Source: Hymenobacter ginkgonis (GTDB lineage: Bacteria > Bacteroidota > Bacteroidia > Cytophagales > Hymenobacteraceae). Taken from it: a DNA stretch of 64,000 nt. This document shows, piece by piece, positions 355 through 19,161 of the stretch. Made by a program: the position numbers and the translations under genes. The notes under the pieces are model-generated. The model saw nothing but the letters and a program-made list of their open reading frames with translations. It had not been told where the DNA came from and made no database searches. Positions within the stretch are counted from its first letter, which is position 1. Each line of letters starts with the position of its first letter. The DNA lies in assembly GCF_009755225.1 (NCBI RefSeq), contig NZ_WQKZ01000003.1:682001-746000 (forward strand), written 5' to 3'.

Positions 355-399
355 GGGTGGGAAATGAGAAAGGGTGAAAAGCAGCAGGTCAGGTGGTGC

Positions 400-1467
400 T
401 CAGTCAAACCGAACCTGGCTGCCAGTGCGGTGCACGTTGGTATCCAGCGATTTGGCGAGGGTAGTCAGCAGCACATCTAGGTCGTGGTTGGGCACTGAGC
501 CCGTGAGCTTTTGCTGGCGCAAAGCCGGGTTGCGCAGGGTAATGTGCAGCCCGTAAGTGTCTTCTAGTAAGGTGATGACTTCTGCCATCGGTGTGTCGTC
601 AAAGTCTAGGTGGCCGCTAGTCCATGCCGCGTACAGAGGGGCATTGACGGCACGCTTGGCCAGTGGCGCAGCGGGAGCGGCCGGCAGAAACTCCGCCAGT
701 TCACCGGGCTTCAGCAGCAGCTCTTCGGTGTGGCCAGCGAACTGGTGCCGCAGCTGCACCTGCCCCGATTGCAGAATTACATTCGTCCGGCCCGGCCGAT
801 TCAATACGTCGAACTGCGTGCCGAGCACGGCCACGTCGAGCGGCCCGGCGTGTACTGTAAACTTCACCTTGGCTGGCGCATGAGCTACGGCTGTCAGTTG
901 GGCGGGCGCGGTGTGTTGCACTTGAAAAAACGCCTCGCCGGTCAGCCATACTTCGCGGGCGTGGCCCGGTTGCCAGGGGGTAGCCAGTTTCAGCACCGAG
1001 TTGTCGTTCAGGGTCACGCGCGAGCCGTCGGGCAGGTGCACCTGCCGGTGCTCACCGGCGCGGGTGGCATAGCTGGTCCAAGCCGGAGCTGGCGCAACGG
1101 TGGCGTACTGCCACACGCCTACCCCCACCACGCCCAGCACCAGCGCGGCCACCGCCACGCTGGCCCAAACTCGGGCGCGTTGGCTCACTCGTAGCACGGG
1201 CTGCTGCCGGGGCGTGGTGGGTAGGTGCAGCGCTCGCCACAGCTTCGCAGCTTCCACTTGCTTGAGGTGATGAGGCAGGGGCGGCGAATAGCTGGTCGCC
1301 AGCAATTGTAGCAGCGCCATTGCTTCGTCGGCTTCCGCTTGCTTGGCAGGGTGCTGCGCCAGCCACGCAAGCCAAAACTGGCCGGCCGCTGGGTCGTGAC
1401 CCAGCGCGAATGCCTGGAATGATTCGTCGGCTAAAAAATCTTCGGTGGAGTAAGCAGCGTAGTTCAT
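400..1467 (-). CDS. FecR family anti-sigma factor
   Basis: Inner-membrane anti-sigma regulator of 355 residues. The ATG at 1467 is preferred to a TTG six bases upstream. The N-terminal cytoplasmic part (about 1-85) would bind the sigma factor. One membrane segment follows at about residues 95-118 (ASVAVAALVLGVVGVGVWQY). The periplasmic FecR domain is at about 135-235, with the recognisable stretches RAGEHRQVHLPDGSRVTLND and EVWLTGEAFFQV. A C-terminal DUF4974/STN-like domain is at about 280-355. In the family this protein holds the ECF sigma factor until the partner receptor binds its ligand. Here the sigma gene lies 168 bp upstream and the receptor gene starts 45 bp downstream, all on the minus strand, so the three form one regulatory unit. 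The length is normal for Bacteroidota FecR proteins. Confidence 0.92.
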   Translation of the reverse strand: MNYAAYSTEDFLADESFQAFALGHDPAAGQFWLAWLAQHPAKQAEADEAMALLQLLATSYSPPLPHHLKQVEAAKLWRALHLPTTPRQQPVLRVSQRARVWASVAVAALVLGVVGVGVWQYATVAPAPAWTSYATRAGEHRQVHLPDGSRVTLNDNSVLKLATPWQPGHAREVWLTGEAFFQVQHTAPAQLTAVAHAPAKVKFTVHAGPLDVAVLGTQFDVLNRPGRTNVILQSGQVQLRHQFAGHTEELLLKPGELAEFLPAAPAAPLAKRAVNAPLYAAWTSGHLDFDDTPMAEVITLLEDTYGLHITLRNPALRQQKLTGSVPNHDLDVLLTTLAKSLDTNVHRTGSQVRFD

Positions 1468-1635
1468 AGGCAACTAGCAGAGTTAAATAGCGGTATTGCA
1501 CCGCCGTTTGCTAACGGCCAAGTAGTCGTTAGCAGCCCCACTCATTTCCATCACGGCTCAAGCAGCCGTTTATACTCATTCCGGCTAAAACTTTTTTTGA
1601 AGTTACTAAGATTTCAAGAACTAACACGCACTTTG

Positions 1636-2208
1636 TTAGCTAATTAAGAGGCACAGCAACACCAGGGCCAACACCTTGCGCAGCGTTTGCAAAGCCTTAA
1701 AAATCAGATTGCGAACTGACTGCGTATTCAAAGTCATCACTTCCGCAATGCGCTCATAAGAAAACCCATCAAAAAACTTCAAATACAGCGCCTCACGCTG
1801 GCGCTTCGAGAGCTGATTGAGGGCGGCCAGTAGCCGGGCGCTCTGCTCCGCATCAACCTGCTGGGCAATCAAGAACTCCTCGTGCGAGTAGGTAACCTCA
1901 AACGAGTCGGTGTAGGTAGGCAGCAGGTAGCGGTGTCGCCGCAGTAGCTTGGTTTCGTCGCCTAGGTGCCGCCGCAACGCCTTGAATAAGTACGCTTTCA
2001 CAACCTGCACAGCTCGCAGCCCTTCGCGACGGCGCCACAGCTTCTGAAACAAGTTTTGGATGCAATCCTTCACCAATTCCTCGTCGCCCGTCAGCTTCAA
2101 CCCGTAGTGATACATCGCTTCGTAGTAAGTATCAAACAAAGTAGCCAGCGCCTGAGCCTCCCCTCCGCGAAAGGCATTCCAAAGCTGGGTGCTGTACTCA
2201 TCTGTCAT
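1636..2208 (-). CDS. ECF RNA polymerase sigma factor
   Basis: A 190-residue sigma-70 family protein of the extracytoplasmic-function class. Region 2 covers about residues 20-90 (LFDTYYEAMYHYGLKLTGDE, then a stretch matching promoter-melting residues around KLWRRREGLRAVQVVKAYLF). Region 4 covers about 125-180, with a helix-turn-helix around LNQLSKRQREALYLKFFDGF and SYERIAEVMTLNTQSVRNLI. The extreme C-terminus is hydrophobic (LRKVLALVLLCLLIS), as is common in Bacteroidota FecR-linked sigma factors. It is the first gene of the sigma/FecR/SusC set and should direct transcription of the receptor operon and probably itself. The upstream 2209-2582 stretch is AT-rich and would carry its promoter. Confidence 0.93.
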   Translation of the reverse strand: MTDEYSTQLWNAFRGGEAQALATLFDTYYEAMYHYGLKLTGDEELVKDCIQNLFQKLWRRREGLRAVQVVKAYLFKALRRHLGDETKLLRRHRYLLPTYTDSFEVTYSHEEFLIAQQVDAEQSARLLAALNQLSKRQREALYLKFFDGFSYERIAEVMTLNTQSVRNLIFKALQTLRKVLALVLLCLLIS

Positions 2209-2582
2209 GGTTTACAGGCGATAACTGCATTTTGCCGGAGGATAAGGATAGTAAGGCTTAATTTATAATATATATAATTTTATGCTAGTAGATACTTAAT
2301 TGTTAATTGGTAGACAAGTATTCCAATAATAGTAAGCATAAATAGTAAATAATTCTTCTAGCGAAATCATAGCCATCGAAGCTTTTATTATATAGAAAAA
2401 CTTAATCGAATATGGAGATTAGCATGGTAGCTTTCATACTGCTACTTTAGCAGTCGAGGTTAATTAAACTAGCTGTGTTTAAAACGCTTGTAAGAAGGCG
2501 CAATTAGTCTAGAAAATCTGTAATCCAGGGAGTAACAAAAACTATATGTTCATGAAATGACAAACTAAGTGCGCTATTAAAA
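2209..2582. other. AT-rich intergenic region upstream of the sigma factor
   Basis: About 370 bp, strikingly AT-rich compared with the flanking genes and without a supported gene. It contains runs such as TAATATATATAATTTT near 2265-2280. It must hold the promoter of the minus-strand sigma factor gene. I do not see a clear -33/-7 pair of the Bacteroidota type. Confidence 0.5.
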
Positions 2583-2864
2583 CTAGTGTTGAGTATAGCA
2601 ACTAGCTAGGTATAAGATGGTCCGCCCGGTGGCCACCCGCACCAAATAGTAAAAGTCGTCGCCCTTGAGGGTGAGGCTGTAAGGCTTGGGCCCACACCAT
2701 TCTTGATGATTTTGGGCCCACTGGCTAAGCAGAATTTTCGCCTCCTGGATGGAGTTTTACACCTGCCAGTACATCTCTGGCGGCTCGGTATTCTCATTTA
2801 TGAAAATGTGCACCTCCTTTATGTGGGCTTTCATACCCGCGATGAATTCGGCTAGGTAGTTCAT
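2583..2864 (-). pseudogene. Small gene broken by one in-frame stop
   Basis: Read from the ATG at 2864 the frame gives 35 codons (MNYLAEFIAGMKAHIKEVHI and on) to a TAA at 2759-2757. It then continues in the same frame for 58 more sense codons (NSIQEAKILLSQWAQNHQEW and on) to a TAG at 2585-2583. Both halves look like one small soluble protein of about 93 residues with ordinary amino-acid composition, so a single nonsense change is the simplest explanation. No family was recognised. The neighbouring intergenic sequence is AT-rich whereas this stretch has the composition of coding DNA. A sequencing error or a genuinely short 35-residue protein are the alternatives. Confidence 0.55.
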
Positions 2865-2988
2865 GCCGCTAAAACACGGCTTAAACGAGTATATTTAAGA
2901 TGAAATGCCAGCAGAAATGAGGGCTATTTCTGGCAATTCATTTCTATTGGTCACTTTGATAAGCAAATGCTTTAAATGGCTACTCGAC

Positions 2989-4707
2989 ATGAAACGAGCA
3001 TCATTCTCCTGGATGTCTATTGCTATACTGGTATTGGTGGTGTCGTGTAGGGAGCGAAGTAGCGTACCCTCGCAGGCAGCCATAACGGAATTAAGTCTTA
3101 AGCGTGGGCTGATTATTACTTGTGGGGCGCCTGACCACAAATTAGGCGTGGTAGAGTTTCCTACCTCCTGCGGCGGCGAAGCTCAGGCAAGCTTTGACCT
3201 AGCGCTACAGTTGCTGCATTCGTTCGAATATGACGAGGCCGAAAAAGCTTTCGCGACGGCTATTGCTAAAAATCCGGCGTGTGCCATGGCCTACTGGGGC
3301 GTGGCCATGGCGAATTTCCATCCGCTCTGGACGCCGCCTTCCGAACGCGAATTGAAAAAGGGGGTGAAAGCCCTTGCTATTGCCCAATCAATTGCGCAAA
3401 AAACGCCACGGGAAGCCGCTTATATTAAGGCTATTGCCGCTTTTTATACCAACTGGGAGCGCGTGAACCATCGGAGCAGGTGCCTTGCTTTTGCGCAGGC
3501 AATGGAAAGGGTACACGCAACCTATCCCGCGGATAACGAGGCTACTATTTTTTACGCCTTGGCCCTGACTGCGGCAGCCGACCCGGCCGATAAACAGTTT
3601 CGAAGTCAGCGCAAAGCCGGCCAGCTGTTGGCAGCGCTGTATCCCAACGAACCCAACCACCCCGGCATTATTCACTACCTGATTCACACTTACGACTACC
3701 CTGAACTAGCCGCTTTGGCCCTGCCTGCCGCCCGAAAGTATGCGGCGGTAGCCCCTTCCTCCGCCCATGCGTTGCACATGCCTTCGCATATTTTCACCCG
3801 CCTGGGCCTGTGGCAAGAATGCGTCGATTCCAACCTGTCCTCGGTGTCCTCGGCCCAGTGCTACGCGCAGCAAGCGGGCATCAAAGGGCACTGGGACGAA
3901 GAGTTGCACGGATTAGATTACCTAACCTATGCCTACCTGCAACGAGGGCAAAATGTGCAGGCCAAGAAGCAATGGGAGTATTTGAAAACGATTAAGGAAG
4001 TTAGTCCGCTCAATTTCAAGGTTGCGTATGCTTTCGCGTCCATTCCAGCTCGTTACTCACTCGAAAACAGGCGCTGGCAAGAAGCCGCTCGCCTACCCCT
4101 TGATAGTACGACGGTCCCGTGGAATAAATTTCCCTGGCAGCAAGCTATCCTCCACTTTGCGCGGCTGCTGGGCGCCGTTCATACGAGCCAGTTGGAACCG
4201 GCTAAATTAGAATTAGCTCAGCTTCAAGGTCTTCAGGCACGGCTAGCAAAGGAGAAAGATGCTTATAAAGCCAACCAAGTAGCCATCCAGGTGCGCGCCG
4301 GCGAGGCGTGGATTCATGTTTTAGCCGGTGAAAATGCACAGGCGCTGACGCTGATGAACCAAGCCGCCGACCTAGAAGACCAAACCGAGAAACACCCGGT
4401 TACCCCCTGCGAAATCATTCCAGCCCGGGAACTACTGGGCGATATGCTGTTACAACTGCACCAGCCTCACCGTGCGCTAGAGGCGTACGTGGCTAGCCTG
4501 CGGAAACACCCGAATCGGTTTAATGGCCTGCTTGGCGCCGGAATGGCCGCCGAACAAGCAGACCTCCCGGAAAGAGCCCAATTCTACTACCAACAGTTAG
4601 TAAAAGTCGCGGACGCGGCTACGGCCAATAGGCCCGAGCTACCTGCAGCCAGACGATACCTTACCTCCCATGTAGTTGGAGGCAGCGTAGCCCTTCGTGG
4701 AAAATAA
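2989..4707 (+). CDS. TPR-repeat lipoprotein of unknown function
   Basis: The frame is open from 2905, but the ATG at 2989 gives a clean lipoprotein leader (MKRASFSWMSIAILVLVVSC, lipid-attachment Cys at residue 20) and is chosen as start, giving 572 residues. Tetratricopeptide-like helices begin at about residue 65 (YDEAEKAFATAIAKNPACAM) and recur up to the C-terminus, including a last pair near PHRALEAYVASLRKHPNRFN. Such proteins are surface or periplasmic scaffolds. The exact partner is not visible. It stands alone, opposite in strand to the sigma/FecR genes, and no operon partner lies downstream within 150 bp. I know of similar TPR proteins in Bacteroidota without an assigned biochemical role. 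Confidence 0.8.
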   Translation: MKRASFSWMSIAILVLVVSCRERSSVPSQAAITELSLKRGLIITCGAPDHKLGVVEFPTSCGGEAQASFDLALQLLHSFEYDEAEKAFATAIAKNPACAMAYWGVAMANFHPLWTPPSERELKKGVKALAIAQSIAQKTPREAAYIKAIAAFYTNWERVNHRSRCLAFAQAMERVHATYPADNEATIFYALALTAAADPADKQFRSQRKAGQLLAALYPNEPNHPGIIHYLIHTYDYPELAALALPAARKYAAVAPSSAHALHMPSHIFTRLGLWQECVDSNLSSVSSAQCYAQQAGIKGHWDEELHGLDYLTYAYLQRGQNVQAKKQWEYLKTIKEVSPLNFKVAYAFASIPARYSLENRRWQEAARLPLDSTTVPWNKFPWQQAILHFARLLGAVHTSQLEPAKLELAQLQGLQARLAKEKDAYKANQVAIQVRAGEAWIHVLAGENAQALTLMNQAADLEDQTEKHPVTPCEIIPARELLGDMLLQLHQPHRALEAYVASLRKHPNRFNGLLGAGMAAEQADLPERAQFYYQQLVKVADAATANRPELPAARRYLTSHVVGGSVALRGK

Positions 4708-4865
4708 ATTTGGCTTGAACAGTTAGGTTGCGCAAAAGGAAGGTTGTTAAACAAAGAAGTTAAAAGCGCTGCCTTTGGCCTTAATTAAAAGCTCGGGTCA
4801 AGAGGCGCAGTTGCTCCAAACGTTTAATTAAGGCTAAGAATACCACTGCATGGTTACTTTCACGC

Positions 4866-5237
4866 ATGCTTTCTATCCGCTTTGTTTGCTGCCTAGGGGT
4901 CTTAGCTCACGGGCTAGCCGCTTCCGGCCTTGCTCACGCCCAGCACCCGGTTCCACCGCATCCAGCTAAGGCTCGCATCCAACTGGGCCGGTGCGACCAG
5001 CAGGTAACTTATAACCTGCCTGCCCAGCGTTTCGACGAAACTGCCCAGGCCATTGCCCGCACCACGGGCTGCTTCATCCGCTATACTGACCAGTCCCTGG
5101 TTAATGTACCCGTGCAGCCCGTGCGCGGTCGGCTCACGCGCCGACAAGCCCTGCGTGTGGCCCTGCGCGGCACCGCTCTGCGCATTGTGCGCGAAACGCC
5201 CAACCTAATGGAGGTCATGCGCGTCCAAGCTCGCTAG
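4866..5237 (+). CDS. Stand-alone secreted STN-domain protein
   Basis: A 123-residue protein with a signal peptide (residues about 1-25, ending GLAHAQ). A single STN domain follows at about residues 50-118: YNLPAQRFDETAQAIARTTG, then GCFIRYTDQSLVNVPVQPVR, then a repeat RRQALRVALRGTALRIVRET. STN domains normally form the N-terminus of secretins, TonB-dependent receptors or FecR C-termini. Here the frame stops directly after the domain and no barrel-coding sequence follows, so this is either a free-standing periplasmic STN protein or the surviving front piece of a TonB receptor gene. A terminator-like hairpin at 5275-5316 directly after the stop favours an intact short gene. The pattern is closer to proteobacterial-type TonB receptor STNs than to the SusC N-terminus at 1-354. 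Confidence 0.65.
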   Translation: MLSIRFVCCLGVLAHGLAASGLAHAQHPVPPHPAKARIQLGRCDQQVTYNLPAQRFDETAQAIARTTGCFIRYTDQSLVNVPVQPVRGRLTRRQALRVALRGTALRIVRETPNLMEVMRVQAR

Positions 5238-5274
5238 GTTTGCCTCTTCGCTGGCAACTTCCTACTTCGCGTCT

Positions 5275-5316
5275 CTACCCCTCCTCGGCCACACTTGTTG
5301 AGCCGAGGGGGGGTAG
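5275..5316 (+). terminator. Hairpin after the STN-domain gene
   Basis: Left arm 5275-5289 (CTACCCCTCCTCGGC) pairs with right arm 5302-5316 (GCCGAGGGGGGGTAG) around a 12-base loop, with one mismatch. It lies 37 bp after the stop codon. No T-run follows, so it may act as an mRNA 3'-end stabiliser rather than a classical intrinsic terminator. Confidence 0.5.
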
Positions 5317-5418
5317 GGTATCGAGATGCAAGGCACAGTGCTTAAGGAGATTCTGGTCGCTAACTAAGATTCTATAACCAACATATCTCACCGCAAGGTC
5401 GGTTTAGGAGCCGGCTAT

Positions 5419-5632
5419 TTATCCCGGCGTGCTGCGGCTGGTCACGGTGCCGTCGCCCAACTGGCCATATTCGTTCCAGCCCCAGGTCGGGCGGCTGCCG
5501 TTGGTGCGTAGGGCCCCGGAGTGGGAGCCGCCCGCACCCAGTGCCGTCCAGTTGGTGGCGTTGCCTACCGGCACCAGGCGCTAGCTGACACTACTGTCGC
5601 CCTACTGGCCGTGGTTGTTTTAGCTATGCAGC
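5419..5632 (-). pseudogene. RCC1-repeat protein remnant
   Basis: The minus strand encodes LVPVGNATNWTALGAGGSHS, then GALRTNGSRPTWGWNEYGQL and GDGTVTSRSTPG before a TAA at 5421-5419. WGWNEYGQLGDGT is the hallmark of an RCC1/ATS1 beta-propeller repeat. Upstream in the same frame the preceding repeat is still readable (NNHGQ, stop, GDSSVS, stop, RLVPVG) but carries three stop codons. No start codon or other repeats are found, so this is a decayed fragment of a multi-repeat secreted protein. Between it and the next gene (5640-6040) another unassignable plus-strand fragment reads RWEFWPVSGHSYFIQVALGF before stop codons. Confidence 0.7.
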
Positions 5633-6042
5633 AGTGCCGGAGCCGATAGCCAACCTCTGGCTCCGGTGTGCTGCCAGCTTCAGCGCTGGGAGTTTTGGCC
5701 CGTTAGCGGCCACAGCTATTTTATACAGGTGGCGCTCGGCTTCGACCCAGTGGATGGGACTAGCCTGAGCGAGTCGTAGCGTCAACAGCTCAGGCTAGTC
5801 CGCTATGCCCCTTGACGTTCTCGCTACCCATAGAGCACCCGTCTAGCCAGCACAGGCAGCGCAAGCTGCCTCAAGCTGAAAGAAACTATTCGCAAAGCCC
5901 ACCGGTCGCAACCGCAAGCAGTCGCAACTGCGCCCAAGCGAGCAAAGGCCTGAACGGGGGGTAGGGCTGCCACCCGCCTAGAGTTACCCGTTGTCAAGGC
6001 CAGCGTGATACTACGGGCGCCCCCGTAATTTGGCTCTTGCTT

Positions 6043-7284
6043 ATGACTCATGCGCATTATTATCCGGCCGACTTGGCGCTGGCCCTGCTGCAGCGCTGGC
6101 CCGCCGACGCCCCGCCGCTACCGGCGGCAGACGTCTTGACGGACTTCCTTTCGGTGCTCTACCAGGCAAGTCTCCTCTTCGAGGAGGGCCAAGCAGTGCG
6201 CTGCCACGCCGTGCTGGCTTCTCCGGCCCAACTGGCCGCTCAGCCCGTGGCCCTCACTGATTTTCACCTCGTGCGCTTGGCCGAGGTGCGCGCCTGGAAC
6301 GAGCAAGAAGTGCGGCGGCTCAGCCCGGCCGTGCATCCCGCTACTAGTCTGTTAGCCGTAGCACCCACGCCCGATGGTCGCCTGCAGCTGTGGGGCCTGC
6401 TATTTAGCGGGCACCAGTGGGACCAGTTGGCTGATGAACTGCCCCGTACCCTAGCCCACGCGCCCCAAGCACTGCTGGTGCAGCTGGGTGGGCCGGGTAG
6501 CCTGGTGTTCTACTATGGAGCCCACCGCGTCCTTACCCTGCAGCGGGGACGCATTGAGGGCCACGGTTTCTTGCAGTTTCCGCGAGCTTGGGGGGCAGGC
6601 CGCTTTTTAGAAAACCAGCAGTTGGCCGGCCCAGCGGCGGCAGGCTTACCCTGGACGGAGGAGCAGAACGAGTGCCTACTGCACCTGGTATTGCGCATGC
6701 AGCGCCGCGCCCTCACGCAGGCGCGCAGCAGCGGCCACGGAATGCTGGTGGTGCTGGTGCCCACGCCCCGCGTCGCCGAGCTACTCGTGCCGGGTGGCGT
6801 GCTGCGCCCTAAATACCGCCTGCTGCCCCCGGAAGCCGGCCCACGCTACCCTAACCTAGTACGCGCTATTATACAGCGACTGTTGGCGCTGGGAGAATTA
6901 AGTTGGACCTGTTACCAACAGTCGCCCGATGCCGAGCTGCGATACTTGACGGCGGAACTCGACCAGTTTGGCAATGACTTAGCGGCTATGGGTGCGGTGG
7001 ATGGGGCCATCGTCCTCACGCACCAGATGGAAGTAGTAGGCTTTGGCGTGGAAGTACAGGCTACTCAGGTGCCCCTTACCCAGGTATACCGCGCCCTGGA
7101 CGTAGGTGGGCAAACCCTGCAAGCCTTACCCGCCGACCAGAGTGGAACCCGCCACCGGGCCGCCTACCGCCTCTGCCTGGCCGCCCCCGACTGCCTGGCC
7201 ATTGTGGTGTCGCAAGATGGCAACGTGCAATTTGTGCATAACCATGCGGGCAGGGTGATTGTCTGGGACCAGCTATCCTTTTAG
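6043..7284 (+). CDS. DisA-like protein: DACNV-type sensor plus diadenylate-cyclase-like domain
   Basis: A 413-residue soluble protein; the ATG at 6043 is preferred to a TTG two codons upstream. The first about 270 residues resemble the sensor region called DACNV that precedes DisA-type domains in Bacteroidota (features GSLVFYYGAHRVLTLQRGRI). The last about 110 residues carry both signature motifs of the diadenylate cyclase (DAC/DisA_N) fold: DGAIV with Asp320, and GTRHRAA with Arg370-His371-Arg372, followed by a strand like IVVSQDGNVQFV. In active enzymes DGA and RHR bind ATP and metal for synthesis of c-di-AMP. Whether this protein is catalytic or only a nucleotide sensor is not decided by sequence. 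No signal peptide or membrane segment is visible. No operon partner is seen on either side, which is unusual because such genes are often linked to effector genes. Confidence 0.72.
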   Translation: MTHAHYYPADLALALLQRWPADAPPLPAADVLTDFLSVLYQASLLFEEGQAVRCHAVLASPAQLAAQPVALTDFHLVRLAEVRAWNEQEVRRLSPAVHPATSLLAVAPTPDGRLQLWGLLFSGHQWDQLADELPRTLAHAPQALLVQLGGPGSLVFYYGAHRVLTLQRGRIEGHGFLQFPRAWGAGRFLENQQLAGPAAAGLPWTEEQNECLLHLVLRMQRRALTQARSSGHGMLVVLVPTPRVAELLVPGGVLRPKYRLLPPEAGPRYPNLVRAIIQRLLALGELSWTCYQQSPDAELRYLTAELDQFGNDLAAMGAVDGAIVLTHQMEVVGFGVEVQATQVPLTQVYRALDVGGQTLQALPADQSGTRHRAAYRLCLAAPDCLAIVVSQDGNVQFVHNHAGRVIVWDQLSF

Positions 7285-7411
7285 GGACAGCTGTTGGATG
7301 CTAGCCTCAACCAGTTGCGGAGTAGTTTGTGCCGAGGAGTCATTGCGACGGCGGATTGAGTGCAACGGGGCAGTAAAAGCTAAACATAGAACTTTCCTTT
7401 AGAGTCGGACT

Positions 7412-7642
7412 ATATGTTTGGCTCCTTTAAATGAAGCCAATAAATTTACCTGCTGGTTATTACGGGGCCAGTGGACAGCCGAGGTAGCCCTACTTACTAA
7501 GGAAGAGAAGGCCTAAGCTGAGGAGGCCACTAAAGACATTCCTTCTCGGCCCCTCTTCAGCTTTTTGCGCGCTATTTGCTCCGTACTGGTTGCCCTATAC
7601 GAGCAGCAACGGCGGTATAACGTGCCACTGCGAGTTAGGTAG
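7412..7642 (+). pseudogene. Unidentified gene fragment with in-frame stop
   Basis: The plus frame reads NKFTCWLLRGQWTAEVALLT and on to a TAA at 7514, then continues with EEATKDIPSRPLFSFLRAIC and LVALYEQQRRYNVPLRVR to a TAG at 7640. The composition is protein-like on both sides of the stop but no family is recognised and no ATG start is evident. It may be a fragment of a decayed gene. Confidence is low. Confidence 0.28.
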
Positions 7643-7688
7643 GAGACGCTAGACGTCATCCAGCTCATAATTTGACGCGCGTATTTAG

Positions 7689-7762
7689 TACTAATTGGAA
7701 TAAAGCCAAACACCGGGCCAGCGCATGCGCTGGCCCGGTGTTTGGCTTTATTCCAATTAGTA
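7689..7762. repeat. Perfect 74-bp palindrome without loop
   Basis: Bases 7689-7725 are the exact reverse complement of 7726-7762. The centre is GCGCATGCGC and the outer arms end in TACTAATTGG / CCAATTAGTA. Symmetry breaks at the next base on each side. As RNA it would form a 37-bp stem on either strand. It lies in an intergenic stretch 400 bp after the DisA-like gene and 170 bp from the stop of the T9SS-sorted gene. It could be a bidirectional terminator, a recombination or replication site, or an assembly fold-back. Confidence 0.85.
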
Positions 7763-7879
7763 TTGGCCTTTCGGCACACAAGTAGATTTGCAGGCCCAGT
7801 GGCGGTAGTCCCGACCGGAAGCACGGTAGGAGGTCACTGCGCCTCCGCTAAATCAATGGCATATACGCTGCGCGGCAGC

Positions 7880-7931
7880 GTGCAAGTAGCTAGTGATTCC
7901 TTAAGCAAAAGGAACCACTAGCTACTTGCAC
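7880..7931 (-). terminator. Long hairpin directly after the T9SS-sorted gene
   Basis: A 23-base arm at 7880-7902 pairs with 7909-7931 with one mismatch, around the 6-base loop AAGCAA. On the minus strand it begins one base after the stop codon of the preceding gene (7935-7933). No T-tract follows in the direction of transcription. Likely 3'-end structure or terminator. Confidence 0.65.
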
Positions 7932-7932
7932 C

Positions 7933-10900
7933 TTAATGCGTTACCGTTAGTCTGCTCCGTAGAACCTGGCCCGTTGCCAAGCGCACTTCTACCACGTAAA
8001 TGCCAGTAGACAGCTTAGAAACATCAATTGTCGTCGATTCTTGATTACGCTCCTGGCTTATGTGCAGGGCACCGTAGCTGTCGTACACTGCCACGTGGGT
8101 CCAGTCATTGTTATTGGTTTGCAGGAAAACCTGAGCTGAGCTGGGGTTAGGGTGTAGCACGAGTTTGTCGTCGGTAGAGCCGATGATTGTCGACGCGTTT
8201 TCCTGCATACTGGCACTGGCTTGAGCGAAGGTTTGGGACTCACCCACCAAGTTGGTTGCAGCTGCTCGCCACACTTCTAGGCCCGAAACGTTGGCAGCGC
8301 CACCTTGCGTCGAAACGTTGAGGGTACCATCCGAGACGGTGGTCCGCCAAGGGCCTAGTTTTTTCCAGGTGCCGGCGCTGCCGCTGTTGTAGTTACTCAA
8401 TACCGTAACGTTCTCTACTTTAACATCAAACGTCTCGGCATAATTGTCCTCCCACACGTACAGGTATACATCGTAGGTGCCGTTGGGTACTGCACCCATA
8501 GCCATAGACGGCGTGACACCCCAAGAGTCTCCGCCCCACAGGAAAGAGCGAATCATGTTGGCACGGACATCATCGGTAGCCGGAATCAGCGGCACTTGCT
8601 GATTCTGGTAGGTATTGCCCGAAAAGGAGAAGTTAGCGGCCGTACTGGCTTCCCAAGCGTTGCCGTCCAGGGTGATGGCCGGCCCGTTGATGTTAATAGC
8701 CCGGTAAAAGCTGGCTGCGGGGGTAGGAGCGGGGGCAGGGGTAGGGGCAGGAATGGTAGAAGGAGTCGCTGCCAGAATCCCCCCCCGGCGTAGGGCAGTA
8801 ACCGGAATCTGCTGTTTAGTCAGCCCAGGCCCGAAGTAGCCCACGGAGAGTAGTTGCGACCCGCCCCGCTGCAAATACGTAACCGTAATGGCGTGGGTGC
8901 CAGCCTGCAAACCAATGTTGCCGGTGCGCTCATTCTCCCCCAGTTGGTTGTTGTCGACCACTAGCGTCGAGCCAATGTAAAGCTGCGAACCATCATCCGA
9001 ATTAAGGATAAAGGAGTATTGGCCATCCGCTGGTACGGTTACGTAACCGGTGTAGCTCACCAGGTAGCCGTAGTCGCGGCGGCGCATACTCAGCTCAAAG
9101 TCGGTTGTCGTGCCTGTTTTTACGGGCGTTAGTTGCGTCAGGTCAGGTAGGTATTCCCAGTAACCTTCGTAGAGCTTGTAATCGAGGCCAGCGGTGGTGT
9201 TGGCTGGATTCTCGGGTGCACGTAGCCCAGCTGTGGTGGGAGACAGGCACGTTACGGTGCCCACGGAGGAATGCGTTACGTTGCTGAAGCGGCTATCGAG
9301 CACGAGCTGCTTGGCGTTGACGAGCGTAGTATTGCAGACCAACGTATTGTAAGAGCCTGTATTTAAGTACAAAGCGCGTTCGGTATTGATAGCCGTGTTA
9401 TCCTGGAAGATACTGCCCAGCACCGCCGGAATTTGCTCATCCAAATAAGGGGTAGCGCCGGTTTGGTAGTCGAGGTAGTTGAGGTAGCCTTCGGGGTAGG
9501 ACGAATCTACCAAGGCTGGGATATTGGGCTGACCAGCAGTGAGTGTGTTGCGGCGCACCTCTAGGCCAATGACCGAAGTGCCGAAGGTGCGGTTCTGAAT
9601 GGGCTGCACGGTGTGTACGCCGATGAAAACGCCATTGGCGCCGTTGGTATTAGCCACGCGGTTGCCAATGATTTGGTTGTTGTACATGGGCAGGAAATCC
9701 TTGGCTATCCCTGGGATGGGCTGGTCCTGCTGCCAAGGCGAGAGGTCAATCGAGCCACTGTTGGTGAGCGTGTTATCAACAATGGCCACGTTGGTCGTCG
9801 CGTTGCCGTAGAGCGTAATGCCGCGCTGGTGCCCCTCAAGCGTATTACCTTGCAGCAGCCAGTTGCGCGAGCCCCAGTTGAAGATAGCATAGCGGCTAGC
9901 AGAGGTAGGAAGGACTTCCCAGGCGCGGTCGAGGGAGAGGGTATTGCCGTTGCGGCTGGTGATGGTGCGCCACTGGCCCATGCCGGGACCATTGACGATG
10001 GCCACCACCGGGTGCAGGCTCATCGGGCCCCAGCTCTTGGCGTTGTCTTGCAGGGTAGTAGGGGAGGCAGCGCTGACGGTGCCAGTCTCCTCGTCGGGAC
10101 GATTAGGCCCCCCGCCTTCGGCGATAATAGTTTCGCCGTCGTTGCTATTTTGGGCAGGGCCGTTGATGAGCTTAAACAGGTTTCCCTTCACCACTAAGTT
10201 ATTGGCGAAGTCAACGATAAGCACGTGGTTAGTAAACCAAGTGGGGTAGCGGGCGTTGCCATCGCGGTAGATGCGGTTGTTTTCAACAACGGCGTCGGTC
10301 ACGAACTGCAGGTTGAGGCCCCTGGTAGCGAAAGTGACCGAGTTATTGCGCAGAACCAAGTTGGAGCTACCATCGAGCAGCATGGGGCCACGCAGGTTAG
10401 GGTTCATGCCCTGGCTGATGTCCGAATTACCGATGAAAAGCTTGTCAGCGTCGCGCAGCATAAGCCACTCGCCCGTATTCAGGTCGAAGCGGATGCGCTG
10501 GAAAAGCAGTTCCCGGCTTTGCTGGCCCCACAAGTTCATTATCCACTTGCCCGAGTTATCGACGTTAATCATCGCTAGGTCGGCCAAGCCGCTCTGGTAG
10601 GCCTGGTCATCAAAGTGAACGGCCTGGCCCGCAGCCGAGTAGCCCGGCGTATCATAGCCAAACTTGACAAACGTGCGGTCTTTGCCCGCTCCCTGAACGA
10701 CTACCCGGTTCCGCATGGCGAAGCCTCCCCAGCCGCTGTAGACCAGCTTATAGGTGCCTTCGGGCAGGTAAACAATGCCCCCGCCGGCTGCTCCGGCCAT
10801 ATCAATGGCTTCCTGAATAGCCGGCTTATCATTTTCCACGCCGTTGCCCACGGCGTGCTGCGTCAGGCGCGAATCGGTCTTAACGTTATAGACGTTGTTG

Positions 10901-11562
10901 GTGAAATTTAGCTTAGCTGCCCAGCCTACCCCCAGTTGGAAATAGTCGTCGCCCGGTGCGATAGCCGTTATAGAGCGCTCAACCAGTGTTTCGCTGTTGC
11001 TGCGGCCATTGCTTACGTATACATCATAAGTGACGCCGGGCACTAGGTTGCCAGGGGCCGTCACACTTAGCGAGTAGGCATCGCTCTGGCTGGCCTGCAC
11101 GGTGGCCATTGCCATGCCGCTACCGTTGTGCGCCTGAAAGCGCACCTGAGACGCACTGCCGCTCAGCTGCAGGTTGCGCCCAAATAGGCGCAGCGGCCCA
11201 CCGGGTTTCACCTCAGGCGAGTCAAAGTGCATACCCTGCGGCCGGTTGACGTAGGCGATGGGACTGCTCTGCCCCTGGTCTTCTATCCACACTTGGTATA
11301 GGTCCAAGCCTATCGTAGCGGGTAGCTGCGCCGTTAGCTGGCCGGCTCGTTGTACTAAGATGGGGAGGGTTATACCGCCGTTGCTAGACGCGAGAAAAGC
11401 CTTCGCAGTTGCCCCAAAATTGCCTTGTAAACTAATGGCTTCCCCAGGTTGAGCCGAAGTACTAATATTGAATATTCTGGTTTGAGCTAATACGGGCGTT
11501 GAATAGCTAAAAATGCTCCAAAAAATTACTGAGAAAAATGTTTTTGTGAAAAATGTTCTCAT
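7933..11562 (-). CDS. Secreted beta-helix (pectate-lyase-like) protein with PA14, malectin and T9SS sorting domains
   Basis: A 1,209-residue exported protein. Signal peptide at residues 1-26 (ending TPVLAQ). Residues about 30-205 look like IPT/TIG-type beta domains. From about 235 a Pectate_lyase_3-type repeat starts (GVENDKPAIQEAIDMAGAAG, then GIVYLPEGTYKL) and leads into a right-handed parallel beta-helix to about 770 (many strands such as LVLRNNSVTF, LLQGNTLEGH). A PA14 domain lies at about 792-922 (YGYLVSYTGYVTVPADGQYS, NSDDGSQLYIGS). A proline/alanine/threonine linker at about 935-950 leads to a malectin-like carbohydrate-binding domain at about 954-1097 (NGTYDVYLYVWEDNYAETFD). The last 75 residues are a type A T9SS C-terminal domain (LVLHPNPSS and GIYVVEVRLATGQVLRSRLT). 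It should be secreted and attached to the cell surface, acting on or binding plant polysaccharide. The enzyme activity (lyase or hydrolase) cannot be assigned from visible residues. Confidence 0.85.
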   Translation of the reverse strand: MRTFFTKTFFSVIFWSIFSYSTPVLAQTRIFNISTSAQPGEAISLQGNFGATAKAFLASSNGGITLPILVQRAGQLTAQLPATIGLDLYQVWIEDQGQSSPIAYVNRPQGMHFDSPEVKPGGPLRLFGRNLQLSGSASQVRFQAHNGSGMAMATVQASQSDAYSLSVTAPGNLVPGVTYDVYVSNGRSNSETLVERSITAIAPGDDYFQLGVGWAAKLNFTNNVYNVKTDSRLTQHAVGNGVENDKPAIQEAIDMAGAAGGGIVYLPEGTYKLVYSGWGGFAMRNRVVVQGAGKDRTFVKFGYDTPGYSAAGQAVHFDDQAYQSGLADLAMINVDNSGKWIMNLWGQQSRELLFQRIRFDLNTGEWLMLRDADKLFIGNSDISQGMNPNLRGPMLLDGSSNLVLRNNSVTFATRGLNLQFVTDAVVENNRIYRDGNARYPTWFTNHVLIVDFANNLVVKGNLFKLINGPAQNSNDGETIIAEGGGPNRPDEETGTVSAASPTTLQDNAKSWGPMSLHPVVAIVNGPGMGQWRTITSRNGNTLSLDRAWEVLPTSASRYAIFNWGSRNWLLQGNTLEGHQRGITLYGNATTNVAIVDNTLTNSGSIDLSPWQQDQPIPGIAKDFLPMYNNQIIGNRVANTNGANGVFIGVHTVQPIQNRTFGTSVIGLEVRRNTLTAGQPNIPALVDSSYPEGYLNYLDYQTGATPYLDEQIPAVLGSIFQDNTAINTERALYLNTGSYNTLVCNTTLVNAKQLVLDSRFSNVTHSSVGTVTCLSPTTAGLRAPENPANTTAGLDYKLYEGYWEYLPDLTQLTPVKTGTTTDFELSMRRRDYGYLVSYTGYVTVPADGQYSFILNSDDGSQLYIGSTLVVDNNQLGENERTGNIGLQAGTHAITVTYLQRGGSQLLSVGYFGPGLTKQQIPVTALRRGGILAATPSTIPAPTPAPAPTPAASFYRAININGPAITLDGNAWEASTAANFSFSGNTYQNQQVPLIPATDDVRANMIRSFLWGGDSWGVTPSMAMGAVPNGTYDVYLYVWEDNYAETFDVKVENVTVLSNYNSGSAGTWKKLGPWRTTVSDGTLNVSTQGGAANVSGLEVWRAAATNLVGESQTFAQASASMQENASTIIGSTDDKLVLHPNPSSAQVFLQTNNNDWTHVAVYDSYGALHISQERNQESTTIDVSKLSTGIYVVEVRLATGQVLRSRLTVTH

Positions 11563-12335
11563 AAAAATAGATTTACGAATGATTAACTTAATTAGGAATA
11601 AAATACCTTTTTAAGTTAAGGAAACAATTGTGATGTGATGAAACTAAATAGTTTGTAAGTAATAAAATTTTGTTAAAAATAAGGCGCTTTTCTTTATTAT
11701 GAATCATGTGAAGAAAAAATTTATTAAGCGACCAAAGCACAATAAACCTAATAGTACTATTTTTTTCTAGTTCCTTGTTAAGCAAAATTTCAAAAGAAAA
11801 TTGATAAATTTCGCTTAATAAAATTAAAATTTCGATTGGCAAGTAGCTGCCATCCAACCCGTATATTACTATTTCCGATTTGTAAAAACTGTGCGTACCT
11901 GATGATTCTTATCTGAAAAAGAATATTTCACGCATTACTTTCCAGGGGAAGTACTAGTAAATTAAGATATTTGCTGCCTTAGCTAATTATTTTAATTAGC
12001 TAAGTAATCAAAGTAATACTTTTTATTTTTAAAACTTGAAATCTTGCAAACATTTTTTATTTGCTTAACTATGCAATATTTTAAACCGCTCTAGTGATTA
12101 GTGAGGTATTTATGAACCTCATACCAATATGATGAAATATGCCGTAGTGACCCGAAATAGGCAATGAATCGACCCAGCACGTGCTATCCCATAGGTAGGT
12201 AAAAGAGGGGTAGTCTAGTTATGCCAGACAGTTTAGCGTACTAGGTTGAAGAGGCTATTGGTAAGCGGCATATGGCGTCTGGTAGTCAATAGCGAATTGC
12301 AGATGAGAGTAGTTACAATAATTGAAATATATTGA
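11563..12335. other. AT-rich intergenic stretch upstream of the T9SS-sorted gene
   Basis: About 770 bp. The first about 550 bases are much richer in A and T than any coding region of the window. They contain only low-complexity open frames that I do not accept as genes. The region must include the promoter of the minus-strand gene ending at 7933. No repeats or RNA gene were recognised. Confidence 0.5.
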
Positions 12336-12387
12336 TGTTATAAACTGACACCGACGCTGATTCAAGCGTCGGCGTCAGTTTATAACA
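12336..12387. repeat. Long inverted repeat (hairpin)
   Basis: Arms 12336-12358 and 12365-12387 (outer sequence TGTTATAAACTGAC) are complementary over 23 bases with a single mismatch, around the loop GATTCA. No neighbouring intact gene ends here. The nearest coding traces are the transposase fragment about 200 bp to the right. It resembles the hairpins at 7880, 13724 and 57298 in stem length and in having one mismatch. Confidence 0.7.
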
Positions 12388-12591
12388 AGGTCCGCTCGGG
12401 TAGTTCGAGGACCTCCGTTTAGAGGTTCGACTACAGACTTTCAACTTGCGCGTTATAGGGCTTGGCTGTCGATGTGGCAATGCGGCGAGCGCACGAGCTG
12501 GTGTTCATCCAGCAGTTAGCCGATACGCGTTGGCGCAGTGCTGCCTACCCCGGTCGGAGTGCGTGAGCGCGCAGGAAGACTATATAACTGT

Positions 12592-12738
12592 CTAGCTTAG
12601 CTCGATTACTTCAACTTCCGCCACTTCCCCGAAGCCTAGTTGGAAATCAGTCACTATCTCGCCTGTTATAACGTCCATCGCACGCTTAATTAGCTCGAAG
12701 CTTACTCTCGAACTATTGCCCAACGCTGTGCGAATTAG
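12592..12738 (+). pseudogene. Transposase (integrase-core) C-terminal fragment
   Basis: The plus frame from 12601 reads LDYFNFRHFPEA, stop, LEISHYLACYNVHRTLN, stop, LEAYSRTIAQRCAN, stop. YLACYNVHRTLN followed by a leucine-rich linker matches the end of IS3-type rve integrase cores (pattern YN..R.H..L...SP). Three in-frame stops show it is dead. No terminal inverted repeats or the catalytic DDE residues are present nearby, so only the tail survives. Confidence 0.55.
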
Positions 12739-12988
12739 CTAGATAGTGGCCCAGATGGCTACCCAAGTTGCGCTTCACCCGGCTGCACGTATTTATGCGC
12801 ATTATCTTCCTGTAGCTTGATGGGCCGTTAGCATCTTGCGGAACAGATTGGCCTACCGGCCCTGGTACTCATCCGCCCGCAACTGGGCAAGCAGCCTGAA
12901 GGCAGCCCTATTGACCTTGGTCACGTATTTGGCTAGCCTGCTTGCCTTTACCCCGACGGGAGCAACTCAGCCGCAGACCTGGCGCCTG

Positions 12989-13246
12989 TTACTTATCAGC
13001 TAGGCCTTCGGCTGCCTGGAGCATATGATACAGGTAGACCCGCGTTAAAAGCTCCGGAGAGAGGGTCTTGTACTCCAGATTTTGATTTACCCTATCCTGT
13101 ATTGCCTGCGGCACGCGAAAGTTGCTGAGGCCTGCGACAGCAAGCTTTTTGCCTCCAACGGCCGCCTCTTCGCCAATCATCATCCGAAAATCGCACTGGC
13201 TTTCAGGCAATGGGATAAAGCTTGGGTCTTGTGAGAAAGTATCCAT
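12989..13246 (-). CDS. Small hypothetical protein
   Basis: An ATG at 13246 opens an 85-residue frame with a soluble, mixed helical composition (NFRVPQAIQDRVNQNLEYKT, then LSPELLTRVYLYHMLQAAEG). No family was recognised. It sits among gene debris: an overlapping remnant lies upstream on the same strand, and downstream a further minus-strand fragment (AKYVTKVNRAAFRLLAQLRA) is interrupted by stops. It could be a small gene from a lost mobile element or part of a broken one. Confidence 0.4.
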   Translation of the reverse strand: MDTFSQDPSFIPLPESQCDFRMMIGEEAAVGGKKLAVAGLSNFRVPQAIQDRVNQNLEYKTLSPELLTRVYLYHMLQAAEGLADK

Positions 13247-13559
13247 ACAAGTTGCGGTTATGCGCGGATAAATATACTGTCTGCCAATTGATTGTTAAAT
13301 GGATATGTGTGTTAAGGCGCTTTGATAACTTGTTGGTAGCCATACCGGCCGCGCCAGTCGCCGCTGCTATCGTTATGCAGGTCTTTGTGTGGGTGTTCGG
13401 ACTAAGAAGCACTGCTTGCATTTGCGCGTAGATTTCTTTTTGCGCTTCGATATGACGAGCCAGTAAGTTGAAGTGGTACTCGAAATAGGCACCCAAAAAT
13501 CCTGGACTGGGACGGCCACCTCGGAAGAAAAACCGAACACCGGTAGCTTCGCTTAGGAA
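13203..13559 (-). pseudogene. Unidentified protein remnant
   Basis: The minus frame reads LSEATGVRFFFRGGRPSPGF, then LGAYFEYHFNLLARHIEAQK and EIYAQMQAVLLSPNTHTK, which looks like real coding sequence. It then degrades into a low-complexity tail that overlaps the start of the 85-residue frame. No start codon is visible upstream. I regard it as the 3' part of a decayed gene without a recognised family. Confidence 0.3.
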
Positions 13560-13723
13560 AGGGGGGTAGGGCTTCTGGTATTTGAGCAGCGCCCGTGGCG
13601 ATTACCAGATTTCGCTCCGTGGCACCGGCCCTCGAATGAATCTGTAAGGCACTGGGGCGGCTCGCGCCCGCTTGCCAAGGAAGCGTGCGCATGCAGCAAC
13701 TGCCCCGGTCGGCTCGCCCTCCC

Positions 13724-13795
13724 TTTACACGCCAGCAGCCACTTGGCGAAGAAGCTTGATTAAGCTTCCTCGCCAAGTGGCTGCTGGCGTGTAAA
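13724..13795 (-). terminator. 34-bp hairpin downstream of the molybdoenzyme operon
   Basis: Arms 13724-13757 and 13762-13795 are complementary over 34 bases with one mismatch, around the loop GATT. On the minus strand it lies 53 bp after the stop of the large molybdenum subunit gene and is the likely 3' end of that operon. There is no T-tract. The stem contains AAGCTT next to the loop. Confidence 0.7.
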
Positions 13796-13847
13796 TGTTA
13801 AAGAGTAGGTAGAGAGAAGTAAAAACAGGCGCCATTACCGGCGCTTG

Positions 13848-16199
13848 CTAGGCTGGCTGCCGCATCGCGTCCAATACCTTGTCGGGGGTGATGGGCAAGG
13901 CACGCAGCCGCCGCCCGGTAGCGTGAAAAATGGCGTTGCCCACAGCAGCACTCGTGCCCACGATGGAAATTTCGCCAATGCCCTTCACGCCCATAGCGTT
14001 AATATAGGGGTCGTGCTCGTCGATAAATTCCACCGTCATATCGGGAATGTCGAGGTTGACACACACGTGGTAATCAGCCAGGCTAGCGTTCGTGTAGCGA
14101 GCTAAATTGGGGTCGCGGTTGGTGCCTTCCATCAAGGCGGCACCGATACCGAAGATGCTGCCGCCCATGATTTGGGAGCGGGCCGTTTTGGGGTTGAGAA
14201 TGCGCCCACCCGCCACCACGCTCACCCAGCGCGTGACGCGCACAGTGCCCAATTCGGGGTCGACATGCACCTCGCAAAAGTGTGCTCCAAATGAGTGCAT
14301 GGAGTGCTCACCGGCATCATCTTTCTTGGTCTTACTGGCATTGAGGGCAGCTTGGGCCGACTCGTAGCCCGCGCCGTAGCGGCCCGTAGCAATGCCCTCC
14401 ACATCACCCATGCTGGCGCGCTGCATTAGGGCCGCAAATTCCTCGCCTTTGCTGGGATTAGCTTTCAGTTGGAGGCGGCCTTTCACCACCTCTACGTCAG
14501 CGGGCTTGGCTTGATAGAGAGGCGATTTTTTATCTAATACGGCCACCTTCGTTAGCTTCTGCCACACATCTTGCGCAGCCAGGTAGACGGACGACGATAC
14601 CGTGCCCGCCGCCATCGAGCCACCCGACACAATGGTGCTGGGCAAGGCGCTGTCCCCCAGCTCAAACCGGATTTTATCGGGCGTAATGCCTAGGGAATCG
14701 GCCGCTACCTGCGTAATAACGGTGTAGGTACCCGTGCCGAGGTCGGTGGCCCCGGCCTGCACCACCGCGTGGCCGTCGGCATAGAGGCGCACCCGGGCAT
14801 TGCCCTGCCCGCTGTGCACGGGGTAGCTGGCCGTGGCCATGCCCCAGCCCACCAGGGTTTTGCCGGCGCGGGTGGCGCCATTTTTGGGGTTGCGTTTGCT
14901 CCAGCCAAATAGCTCGGCCCCGCGGGCATAGCACTCTTTCAGGCTTTTGCTACTCCAGGGCTTGCCGGTGCTGGGGTCTTTCTCGGCATAATTCAGCAGG
15001 CGAATCTGGATGGGGTCGAGCCCCACGCGGTAAGCCAAATCGTCCATCGCGCACTCGATGGCAAACGAGCCAGGCGCCTCGCCAGGAGCCCGCATGTAGG
15101 TGCTGGTCATCACATTGGCCCGCGCCAGTTGGGTTTGCGCCTCAAAATGCGGGCAGTCGTAGAGCAGGTCCACGATTTTGGCGTTTGTTTCGGCGTAATT
15201 GTCCCAGGCCGAGGTAGTCGAGGTTTTTTCGTGCAGCAGCGCCAGCAGCTTGCCTTCCTTGGTGGCACCTAGGCGCAGGGTTTGCTCCTGGTCTTCGCGG
15301 TGGCCCATGCTCGTGAATTGCTGCGGGCGCGTGAGCGCCAGCTTCACTGGCCGGCCCACAGCCTTGGCGGCCTGAATGGTGAGGATGGTGTGTGGCCAGG
15401 TACTACCCTTGCAACCGAAGCCCCCGCCGAGGTACTTATTCACTACCCGCACCTGGTCAACGGGCAGGCCCAGCATCGCGCTCAGGGACTTTTGCGTCCA
15501 GGTAATGCCCTGGGTAGTGTCGTACACCGTCACGCGGTCGGGGGCCTCCCAGTGGGCAATGGTCGCGCCCGGCTCCATGGGGTTGTGGTGGGTGATGGCG
15601 TGGTGATAAGTAGCCGTCAGCTGAATAGGGGCACTGGCAAAAGCAGTCTGCGCGTCGCCGCGTTTGGGTTGGTTCTCGGTCTTACCAACAGTCAGTTTAG
15701 TAGGGTCAAACAGCTTGGCCTTCGGGTCTTGGTACGATACTGTGGGCACCTCGGTCGCTACCTGCACTTTTAGCAGCGTGGCGGCATACTGCGCCCGTTC
15801 TAGCGTGTCGGCCACCACCAGGGCTACGGGCTGGGCGGCGTAGTAAATCTGGTCCGATGTCAGGGGCAAAAACCCCATCTGTACGCCCATACCGATAGCT
15901 TTCTTGCCCTCGGGCGTGTCGGGTGTAATGGCCAACTTCGGCAAGTTCTGGTGCGTGAGAATGGCCAGCACGCCCGGCGCCCGCTGGGCCGCGCTGGCGT
16001 CGAAACCCGTGATGCGGCCCTTGGCCACGTCGCTGGTTTTGAAAACGCCGTGCACCAGGCCGGGCACGTTGTTGTACTCGGCCGAGTACTTGGCCGCACC
16101 CGTCACCTTGGCCCGGCCATCCACGCGGGTGAGCGGCTGGCCTACCACCCCAGCTTTGGGGTTGGTGTCGGCGAAATTCGGTTCGATATCCAGTTCCAT
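13848..16199 (-). CDS. paoC: Aldehyde oxidoreductase, molybdenum-cofactor-binding subunit (PaoC/YagR type)
   Basis: 783 residues, the normal size for the large subunit of the xanthine oxidase family in its three-polypeptide form. The first about 130 residues hold the aldehyde oxidase a/b hammerhead domain (VDGRAKVTGAAKYSAEYNNV). The rest is the molybdopterin-binding domain with the cofactor motif GGGFGCKG near residue 260, and near residue 740 the motif KGIGE whose Glu is the catalytic base of the family. Substrate would be an aldehyde or N-heterocycle oxidised with water as oxygen donor. It is the third gene of a minus-strand operon: 2Fe-2S subunit, FAD subunit (27 bp upstream), then this one. 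Export is expected with the small subunit, which carries a Tat signal. No PaoD/XdhC-type maturation gene is present nearby. The gene symbol is by similarity of architecture to E. coli paoABC. Confidence 0.9.
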   Translation of the reverse strand: MELDIEPNFADTNPKAGVVGQPLTRVDGRAKVTGAAKYSAEYNNVPGLVHGVFKTSDVAKGRITGFDASAAQRAPGVLAILTHQNLPKLAITPDTPEGKKAIGMGVQMGFLPLTSDQIYYAAQPVALVVADTLERAQYAATLLKVQVATEVPTVSYQDPKAKLFDPTKLTVGKTENQPKRGDAQTAFASAPIQLTATYHHAITHHNPMEPGATIAHWEAPDRVTVYDTTQGITWTQKSLSAMLGLPVDQVRVVNKYLGGGFGCKGSTWPHTILTIQAAKAVGRPVKLALTRPQQFTSMGHREDQEQTLRLGATKEGKLLALLHEKTSTTSAWDNYAETNAKIVDLLYDCPHFEAQTQLARANVMTSTYMRAPGEAPGSFAIECAMDDLAYRVGLDPIQIRLLNYAEKDPSTGKPWSSKSLKECYARGAELFGWSKRNPKNGATRAGKTLVGWGMATASYPVHSGQGNARVRLYADGHAVVQAGATDLGTGTYTVITQVAADSLGITPDKIRFELGDSALPSTIVSGGSMAAGTVSSSVYLAAQDVWQKLTKVAVLDKKSPLYQAKPADVEVVKGRLQLKANPSKGEEFAALMQRASMGDVEGIATGRYGAGYESAQAALNASKTKKDDAGEHSMHSFGAHFCEVHVDPELGTVRVTRWVSVVAGGRILNPKTARSQIMGGSIFGIGAALMEGTNRDPNLARYTNASLADYHVCVNLDIPDMTVEFIDEHDPYINAMGVKGIGEISIVGTSAAVGNAIFHATGRRLRALPITPDKVLDAMRQPA

Positions 16200-16226
16200 G
16201 GGGAAGAAATTAAAGCGTGAAATGGG

Positions 16227-17213: not shown

Positions 17214-17246
17214 CGTCGTAAGCAGGAAAATAGGGTGATGAAGCGC

Positions 17247-18777: not shown

Positions 18778-18836
18778 GAAGGCAGAAGCAGGGGTAGCGC
18801 GCAAAGATATTGCCGAGCCAGCTCCCGCTACCCCCC

Positions 18837-19106: not shown

Positions 19107-19161
19107 GCGGAGAGGTAGAGAAAGGGAAACAACAAAAATAAACTGGTGCCAAAGCCCAGCG

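Follow-up and report, generated by a model that had tools for sequence, protein, structure and literature searches.

A perfect 74-bp palindrome at positions 7689–7762 of the window (the whole 64,000-nt stretch of DNA analysed here) is probably a gene-end hairpin that would work as a bidirectional intrinsic transcription terminator and 3′-end stabiliser between two convergent genes, a reading to which we assign a probability of roughly 0.6. That it ends transcription is what we infer from its anatomy, its convergent position and the behaviour of the class of long hairpins to which it belongs. The features of the locus are the following:

7689..7762, no strand: palindrome, perfect over 74 bp, with 37-bp arms and no spacer
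7705..7746, no strand: inner GC-rich part of the palindrome (GCC...GGC, 42 nt), from the sequence
7747..7752, plus strand: TTTATT, the candidate U-rich tract for transcription from the left, within the perfect arm (from the sequence)
7699..7704, minus strand: mirror tract for transcription from the right, AATAAA on the plus and TTTATT on the minus strand
6037..7284, plus strand: gene with DACNV and DAC domains (diadenylate-cyclase-like), from domain matches and gene calls
7588..7662, minus strand: decayed start of an IS5-family transposase gene, a neighbour recognised by sequence matches
7880..7931, minus strand: second hairpin of the gap, with a 23-bp stem, 1 mismatch and a 6-nt loop
7933..11562, minus strand: convergent secreted-protein gene with beta-helix, PA14 and Por secretion-tail matches, from domain matches and gene calls

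The palindrome is its own reverse complement over all 74 bases, with 0 nt between the 37-nt arms, as the initial annotation had claimed, and the symmetry breaks at the very next base on both sides. Given the base composition of the window, 9e-18 such palindromes are expected by chance, and its hairpin score of 37 compares with best scores of 9 to 14 in 40 order-2 Markov shuffles of the window; chance is therefore not the explanation. A GC-rich stem-loop, as looked for in a terminator, is predicted in the RNA of both strands, either of which folds into a stem of 35 pairs with a 4-nt loop (−65.9 kcal/mol), and the fold computed with flanks has z = −13.3, with 0 of 200 shuffles as good. Both strands carry the layout A-tract, GC stem, T-tract (AATAAA-GCC...GGC-TTTATT) and this, together with the convergent gap, favours a bidirectional terminator. 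The terminator reading is weakened by the U-rich tract that follows the GC part on each strand, since TTTATT is not a pure T-run, is located inside the perfect arm and is not a strong U-tract, and because a simple terminator consensus scan, while placing sites at the palindrome on both strands, gave a regional total of 11 against a shuffled mean of 9.6.

The palindrome is situated in a 648-nt gap with convergent genes on either side, 404 nt beyond the stop of the plus-strand DACNV–DAC gene, the DAC match of which is barely over its cut-off (27.1 versus 27 bits), and 170 nt beyond the stop of the minus-strand beta-helix gene. The second hairpin lies 1 nt past the stop of the latter gene, with no T-run after it. 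The initial annotation had called the surroundings non-coding, and this holds as far as tested: a mechanical 103-aa ORF spanning the palindrome (7513–7824, minus strand) was dropped by the coding-score gene caller and has no Pfam match up to E 1. A search of window positions 1–20000 against Rfam returned nothing at the gathering score. We also considered a decayed plus-strand gene ending ~50 nt before the palindrome, which would have given it the usual hairpin-to-gene-end distance; the candidate frame (7403–7639) is without a relative in 60 other genomes and was rejected. Both neighbouring genes have relatives in the same contig. That of the DACNV–DAC gene (44%; G000 C22:631216-632439) has one in-frame TAA, and some genomes hold several such relatives, with 10 matches in the fragmented genome G027; that of the beta-helix protein (58% over residues 13–782; G000 C22:354716-357064) is followed by a 35-bp near-perfect hairpin.

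A search for further copies, suggested in the initial annotation, found the full 74 bp once, in place, among 59 genomes comprising the 5.67-Mb genome itself and 58 relatives. The best match elsewhere is 27 nt long (E 0.0014), and at E up to 10 the sequence is matched in 54 of the 59 genomes, always over a short stretch. Within a collection of 84,980 species, the search of which may omit the window's own genome, the core 20-mer occurs only in Shimia marina and Azospirillum cavernae, two unrelated bacteria. The arm has no 14-mer in common with the rest of a 704-kb sample of the same contig, and a 361-nt piece of the gap had no match among plasmids and phages. Occurring once in its genome and, over its full length, in none of the relatives, the sequence is neither repetitive nor a conserved site within the scope of these searches. 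The nearest orthologue of the DAC gene (82%, G033) is followed, 378 nt past its stop, by a loopless palindrome of 16 bp that differs from the one studied, in a gap that gives no convincing or meaningful alignment with that of the window. Eleven loci of DAC relatives were examined (L082–L092), with L090 left out because of a wrong ORF choice, and a hairpin scoring at least 10 lies downstream in 3 of the 10 readable ones. No homologous or ancestral form of the palindrome was found in its own genome, in the 58 relatives or in the nearest orthologous gap (G033), so the event behind it cannot be read from the locus.

Long hairpins as a class were surveyed in the same 704 kb, window included, of a total of 5671 kb. 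The hairpin finder grew stems from the centre, with a loop of up to 10 and a score of −3 per mismatch, a penalty that favours perfect stems; genes were called with our own simple coding-score script, and E. coli was counted without gene calls. The sample contains 60 hairpins scoring at least 13, 23 of at least 20, 12 of at least 25 and 10 of at least 30, the longest perfect arms measuring 42 bp, and includes a loopless perfect 35-bp palindrome at C22:527114. Markov shuffles, one per set, contained 0 hairpins scoring at least 13. At score 13 the density is 8.5 per 100 kb here and ranges from 4.0 to 12.5 across six further genomes of the genus; it is 6.0 and 0.5 in two members of the same order (G040 and G045, respectively), 0.5 in E. 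coli K-12 (a single 14-bp hairpin in 200 kb) and 2.0 in 150 kb from two plasmids of Hymenobacter sp. NBH84 (3 hairpins, one with 28-bp perfect arms). Hairpins scoring at least 30 number 10 in the 704 kb, 1 per 200 kb in G012 and in G031, and 0 in the other six sets; the longest hairpins may be commoner in this genome than in the other sets, the samples being small.

Six of the 60 hairpins overlap called genes, one lies at an edge and 53 are in gaps. Convergent gaps, which make up 17% of gap bases, hold 26 of these 53 (binomial P 1e-7), divergent gaps (24% of gap bases) hold 4 (P 0.002) and the remaining 23 are codirectional, while 49 of the gap hairpins have an upstream stop, which for 43 of them is no more than 60 nt away. 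When seven genomes of the genus are taken together and searched with a somewhat more permissive finder, 57 hairpins are in convergent gaps (37 kb in all), 59 in codirectional gaps (157 kb) and 5 in divergent gaps (57 kb). The terminator reading is supported by this enrichment in convergent gaps, depletion in divergent gaps and closeness to stops. The palindrome at 7689–7762 is convergent like its class but, at 170 and 404 nt from the stops, an exception in distance, which weakens the same reading. Elsewhere in the window, a giant gene-end hairpin at 13724–13795 (34-bp stem, one mismatch, 4-nt loop) lies 52 nt past the stop of a xanthine-dehydrogenase-like gene (13848–16199, minus strand), and a hairpin of the gene-end type at 12336–12387 (23-bp stem, one mismatch) is without a near gene, the called genes being 773 nt and 1460 nt off. 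An exception to the gene-end rule is found between divergent genes at G000 C22:353967-354081, where a strong hairpin of 15 perfect pairs is separated by three nt from another, AT-rich one of 37 perfect pairs.

Other hairpins of the class indicate that these structures act as RNA: pairs in the stem after lolA covary, and mismatches favour G-U on the transcribed strand. Each such G-U mismatch reads as A-C on the opposite strand. Among 84 hairpins within 150 nt of a stop in seven genomes, stem mismatches after codirectional genes comprise 23 G-U, 9 A-C and 8 other on the transcribed strand (two-sided P 0.02). An earlier, overlapping count from four genomes gave 14 G-U, 5 A-C and 4 other; convergent gaps, for which a bias would not be predicted, gave 8 G-U, 7 A-C and 2 other. 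In the window, the hairpins at 7880, 12336 and 13724 have one mismatch each, in every case G-U on the minus strand, which is the strand of the neighbouring gene and, for 7880–7931, the transcribed strand. The 3′ end of lolA is followed by a hairpin scoring at least 8 in 25 of 30 loci. An alignment of the stem from 24 of the 30 loci (23 distinct rows) has 95.3% of cells paired and 7 of 11 pairs changed on both sides; such two-sided changes occur in 16 cells, compared with 3.1 in shuffles, and none of five measures was equalled in any of 500 shuffles. L211 (the genome itself), L214, L216, L217, L221 and L223, which have another hairpin or none there, were left out. This count replaces a first one from 19 of the 30 loci (8 of 11 pairs changed on both sides), which omitted five loci with less well pairing cores. 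The stem after lolA is perfect over 32 bp in this genome, and the others score 8 to 21. An inversion of the lolA loop, considered by eye as a mark of template switching, was not decisive and was dropped.

Other gene ends point to turnover of the hairpins. After surE, a hairpin scoring at least 8 is present in 24 of 30 loci and one of at least 16 in 11, mostly of unlike sequence, including 42 perfect pairs in this genome and 72 pairs with one mismatch in G035. The 72-pair stem (L191) starts at the stop codon itself and contains a tandem GGTCAGT stretch and a GTCATGCTGAGC repeat. The surE hairpins of L182 (G033) and L184 (G072) are apparently homologous; three substitutions and a 1-nt indel separate them, and every change has its mirror image in the opposite arm (one example, read by eye). 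Template switching would produce an indel mirrored in this way. The 3′ end of thiL has a hairpin in only 9 of 30 loci (L162 was misread, the gene being cut short), so such hairpins are not obligatory. The 35-bp loopless palindrome at C22:527114 is absent from the nine nearest orthologous loci, where G033 has a 45-bp stem with 5 mismatches and the others have weak hairpins or none.

If the palindrome is a two-way terminator, RNA polymerase arriving from the side of the DAC gene, or from the right after passing the hairpin at 7880–7931, would transcribe it, and its RNA would fold into a very stable GC-rich stem followed by UUUAUU, with release of the transcript. Because the DNA is a perfect palindrome, termination would be the same on both strands. 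The extra length and perfection would arise during replication, when template switching copies one arm onto the other; the excess length seems most simply explained in this way, as the arms would be extended and corrected in one step. Stems far longer than the usual terminator and the mirrored surE pair support such template switching. The terminator reading is weakened, in addition to the points above, because the minus-strand gene already has a hairpin right after its stop, so that the palindrome would mainly serve the DAC gene, across a gap with a decayed IS, and because hairpins in only 3 of 10 gaps of DAC relatives imply that none is obligatory there. A broader proposal, which we regard as speculative and rather unlikely, is that the genus (probably Hymenobacter) has an unusually active DNA-level process, for example template switching, that creates, lengthens and re-perfects gene-end palindromes, with giant terminator hairpins of unrelated sequence re-arising at the same gene ends in different species and the 74-bp palindrome a fresh product.

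The main competing explanation is a functionless by-product of mutation, an inverted duplication left in decaying intergenic DNA by fold-back synthesis or template switching and too recent to have lost its perfection. The sequence is private to this genome, adjoins a decayed IS relic and is farther from stops than 43 of the 49 class hairpins; the minus-strand gene has its own hairpin, and the loopless 35-bp palindrome at C22:527114 is likewise missing from its nearest orthologous loci. Mutation alone, however, should be indifferent to the 26 convergent against 4 divergent placements among the 53 gap hairpins, and A-tract, GC core and T-tract form a terminator layout, so we consider an origin without function improbable, if less so than the remaining alternatives. 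The relic itself is recognised by a 77% match over 75 nt in G091 (E 1.8e-9), and the 404-nt left part of the gap is matched in 16 of 100 other genomes at E ≤0.01, mostly over the relic stretch. An open copy of the transposase in G003 has DUF4096 and DDE_Tnp_1 domains, the closest record among plasmids to a relative's IS5 transposase is from Hymenobacter sp. NBH84 (65.6%), and the IS end used as a query matched only the relic in the genome itself. The left arm could be the end of this relic and the palindrome an inverted duplication at the IS tip, given that the transposase start lies 26 nt left of the palindrome and that the arm contains short words also present in the IS tip (CTAATT, CCAAACAC). 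Positions 7664–7725, however, align to all six IS ends compared no better than shuffles do (P 0.12 to 0.50); the arm was rejected as an IS tip, and with a single copy in the genome we consider the initial annotation's relic of a mobile-element end very improbable.

Mobility of another kind, as a REP/BIME or MITE-like palindrome, is brought to mind by a REP-like motif, GTCATGCTGA, which is counted 21 times over the two strands of the 704-kb sample, is part of some giant hairpins (by exact motif, only 2 of the 23 scoring at least 20) and resembles the CGTC-tagged REPs described from Bacteroidetes among other phyla (PMC3733652). The palindrome, in contrast, is present once in the genome and absent from the 58 relatives searched, contains neither GTAG nor CGTC anywhere in its 74 nt and shares no 14-mer of its arm with the remainder of the sample, which leaves little room for such an element. 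A role as DNA, in protein binding, recombination or replication, would suit the perfect dyad symmetry, but the sequence is single in the genome, common to none of the 58 relatives and represented in the 84,980-species collection only by a core 20-mer in two unrelated bacteria. There is no sustained GC-skew switch at the palindrome either, the skew in 20-kb blocks of the contig having the same sign on both sides, though it is weak and noisy there; we therefore hold the recombination or replication site suggested previously to be highly unlikely. The draft state of the genome (37 contigs) might recall an assembly fold-back, yet the flanks are unique, mutually unrelated and inside a 1.09-Mb contig, 74 bp is well under short-read length, and comparable hairpins are found in other assemblies, some of them consisting of a single contig, all of which makes an artefact barely credible. 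Of the four options listed in the initial annotation, the bidirectional terminator is the best supported, by anatomy, convergent place and class behaviour, and is putative for 7689–7762; a mobile-element end and a recombination or replication site found no support, and a fold-back is unlikely.

The palindrome had also been described as of a structure unstable in many bacteria, a statement too strong for 74 bp when the same contig holds arms as long or longer. In the work reported in PMC4245961, the palindrome lethal to E. coli expressing SbcCD was perfect over 460 bp. Instability is no strong objection here, because the genome has a gene for SbcD, which is the nuclease subunit of SbcCD, an enzyme that cleaves palindromes, and keeps several such hairpins. 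Taken alone, the palindrome is just another gene-end hairpin, near the upper limit of length. What deserves attention is the class, for its near-perfect stems of 30 to 70 bp with differing sequences across species at the same gene end; the genus offers a natural test of template switching as a builder and maintainer of RNA stems in bacteria, and the class is a source of candidate strong two-way terminators in Bacteroidota.

Gene-end hairpins are a known kind, of which 7689–7762 is a newly found example; among the matches listed in the open-licence PMC literature, none concerned giant gene-end hairpins in this genus. REPs have been described as GTAG- or CGTC-tagged elements of 20–40 bp, present in many copies, extragenic and mostly downstream of genes (PMC3733652); the palindrome is also extragenic, but single copy, untagged and perfect over 74 bp. 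RNA stems that template switching creates or corrects (PMC8794818), and quasipalindrome correction (PMC7202029), are further points of comparison; the palindrome is alike in having long perfect arms that would hardly be built by single mutations, and differs from template-switch stems in that its locus is without an ancestral form. Perfect inverted repeats have been reported as enriched downstream of stop codons, with 4 bp as their commonest spacer in Bacteria (PMC13155455; PMC6060812), and E. coli as poor in arms of at least 13 bp (PMC6060812). The palindrome resembles these repeats in its gene-end place and perfect arms, but its arms are far longer than those of E. coli and have no spacer. 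Stem-loops have been found preferentially in convergent gaps and at the 3′ ends of genes in the species examined (PMC1590033; PMC13155455), and those flanked by A and T (4A/4T) in convergent gaps have been proposed as bidirectional Rho-independent terminators (PMC1590033). Intrinsic-terminator hairpins have species medians of ~20–35 nt in all, according to PMC12207403, and the initial annotation was right that the palindrome is much longer than an ordinary terminator, with its 37-bp perfect arms. It also differs in keeping its T-tract inside the palindrome and in lying farther from the stops than most of its class. It is like the bidirectional terminators in its convergent gap, its GC-rich stem, its A-tract and T-tract, and two strands that read alike.
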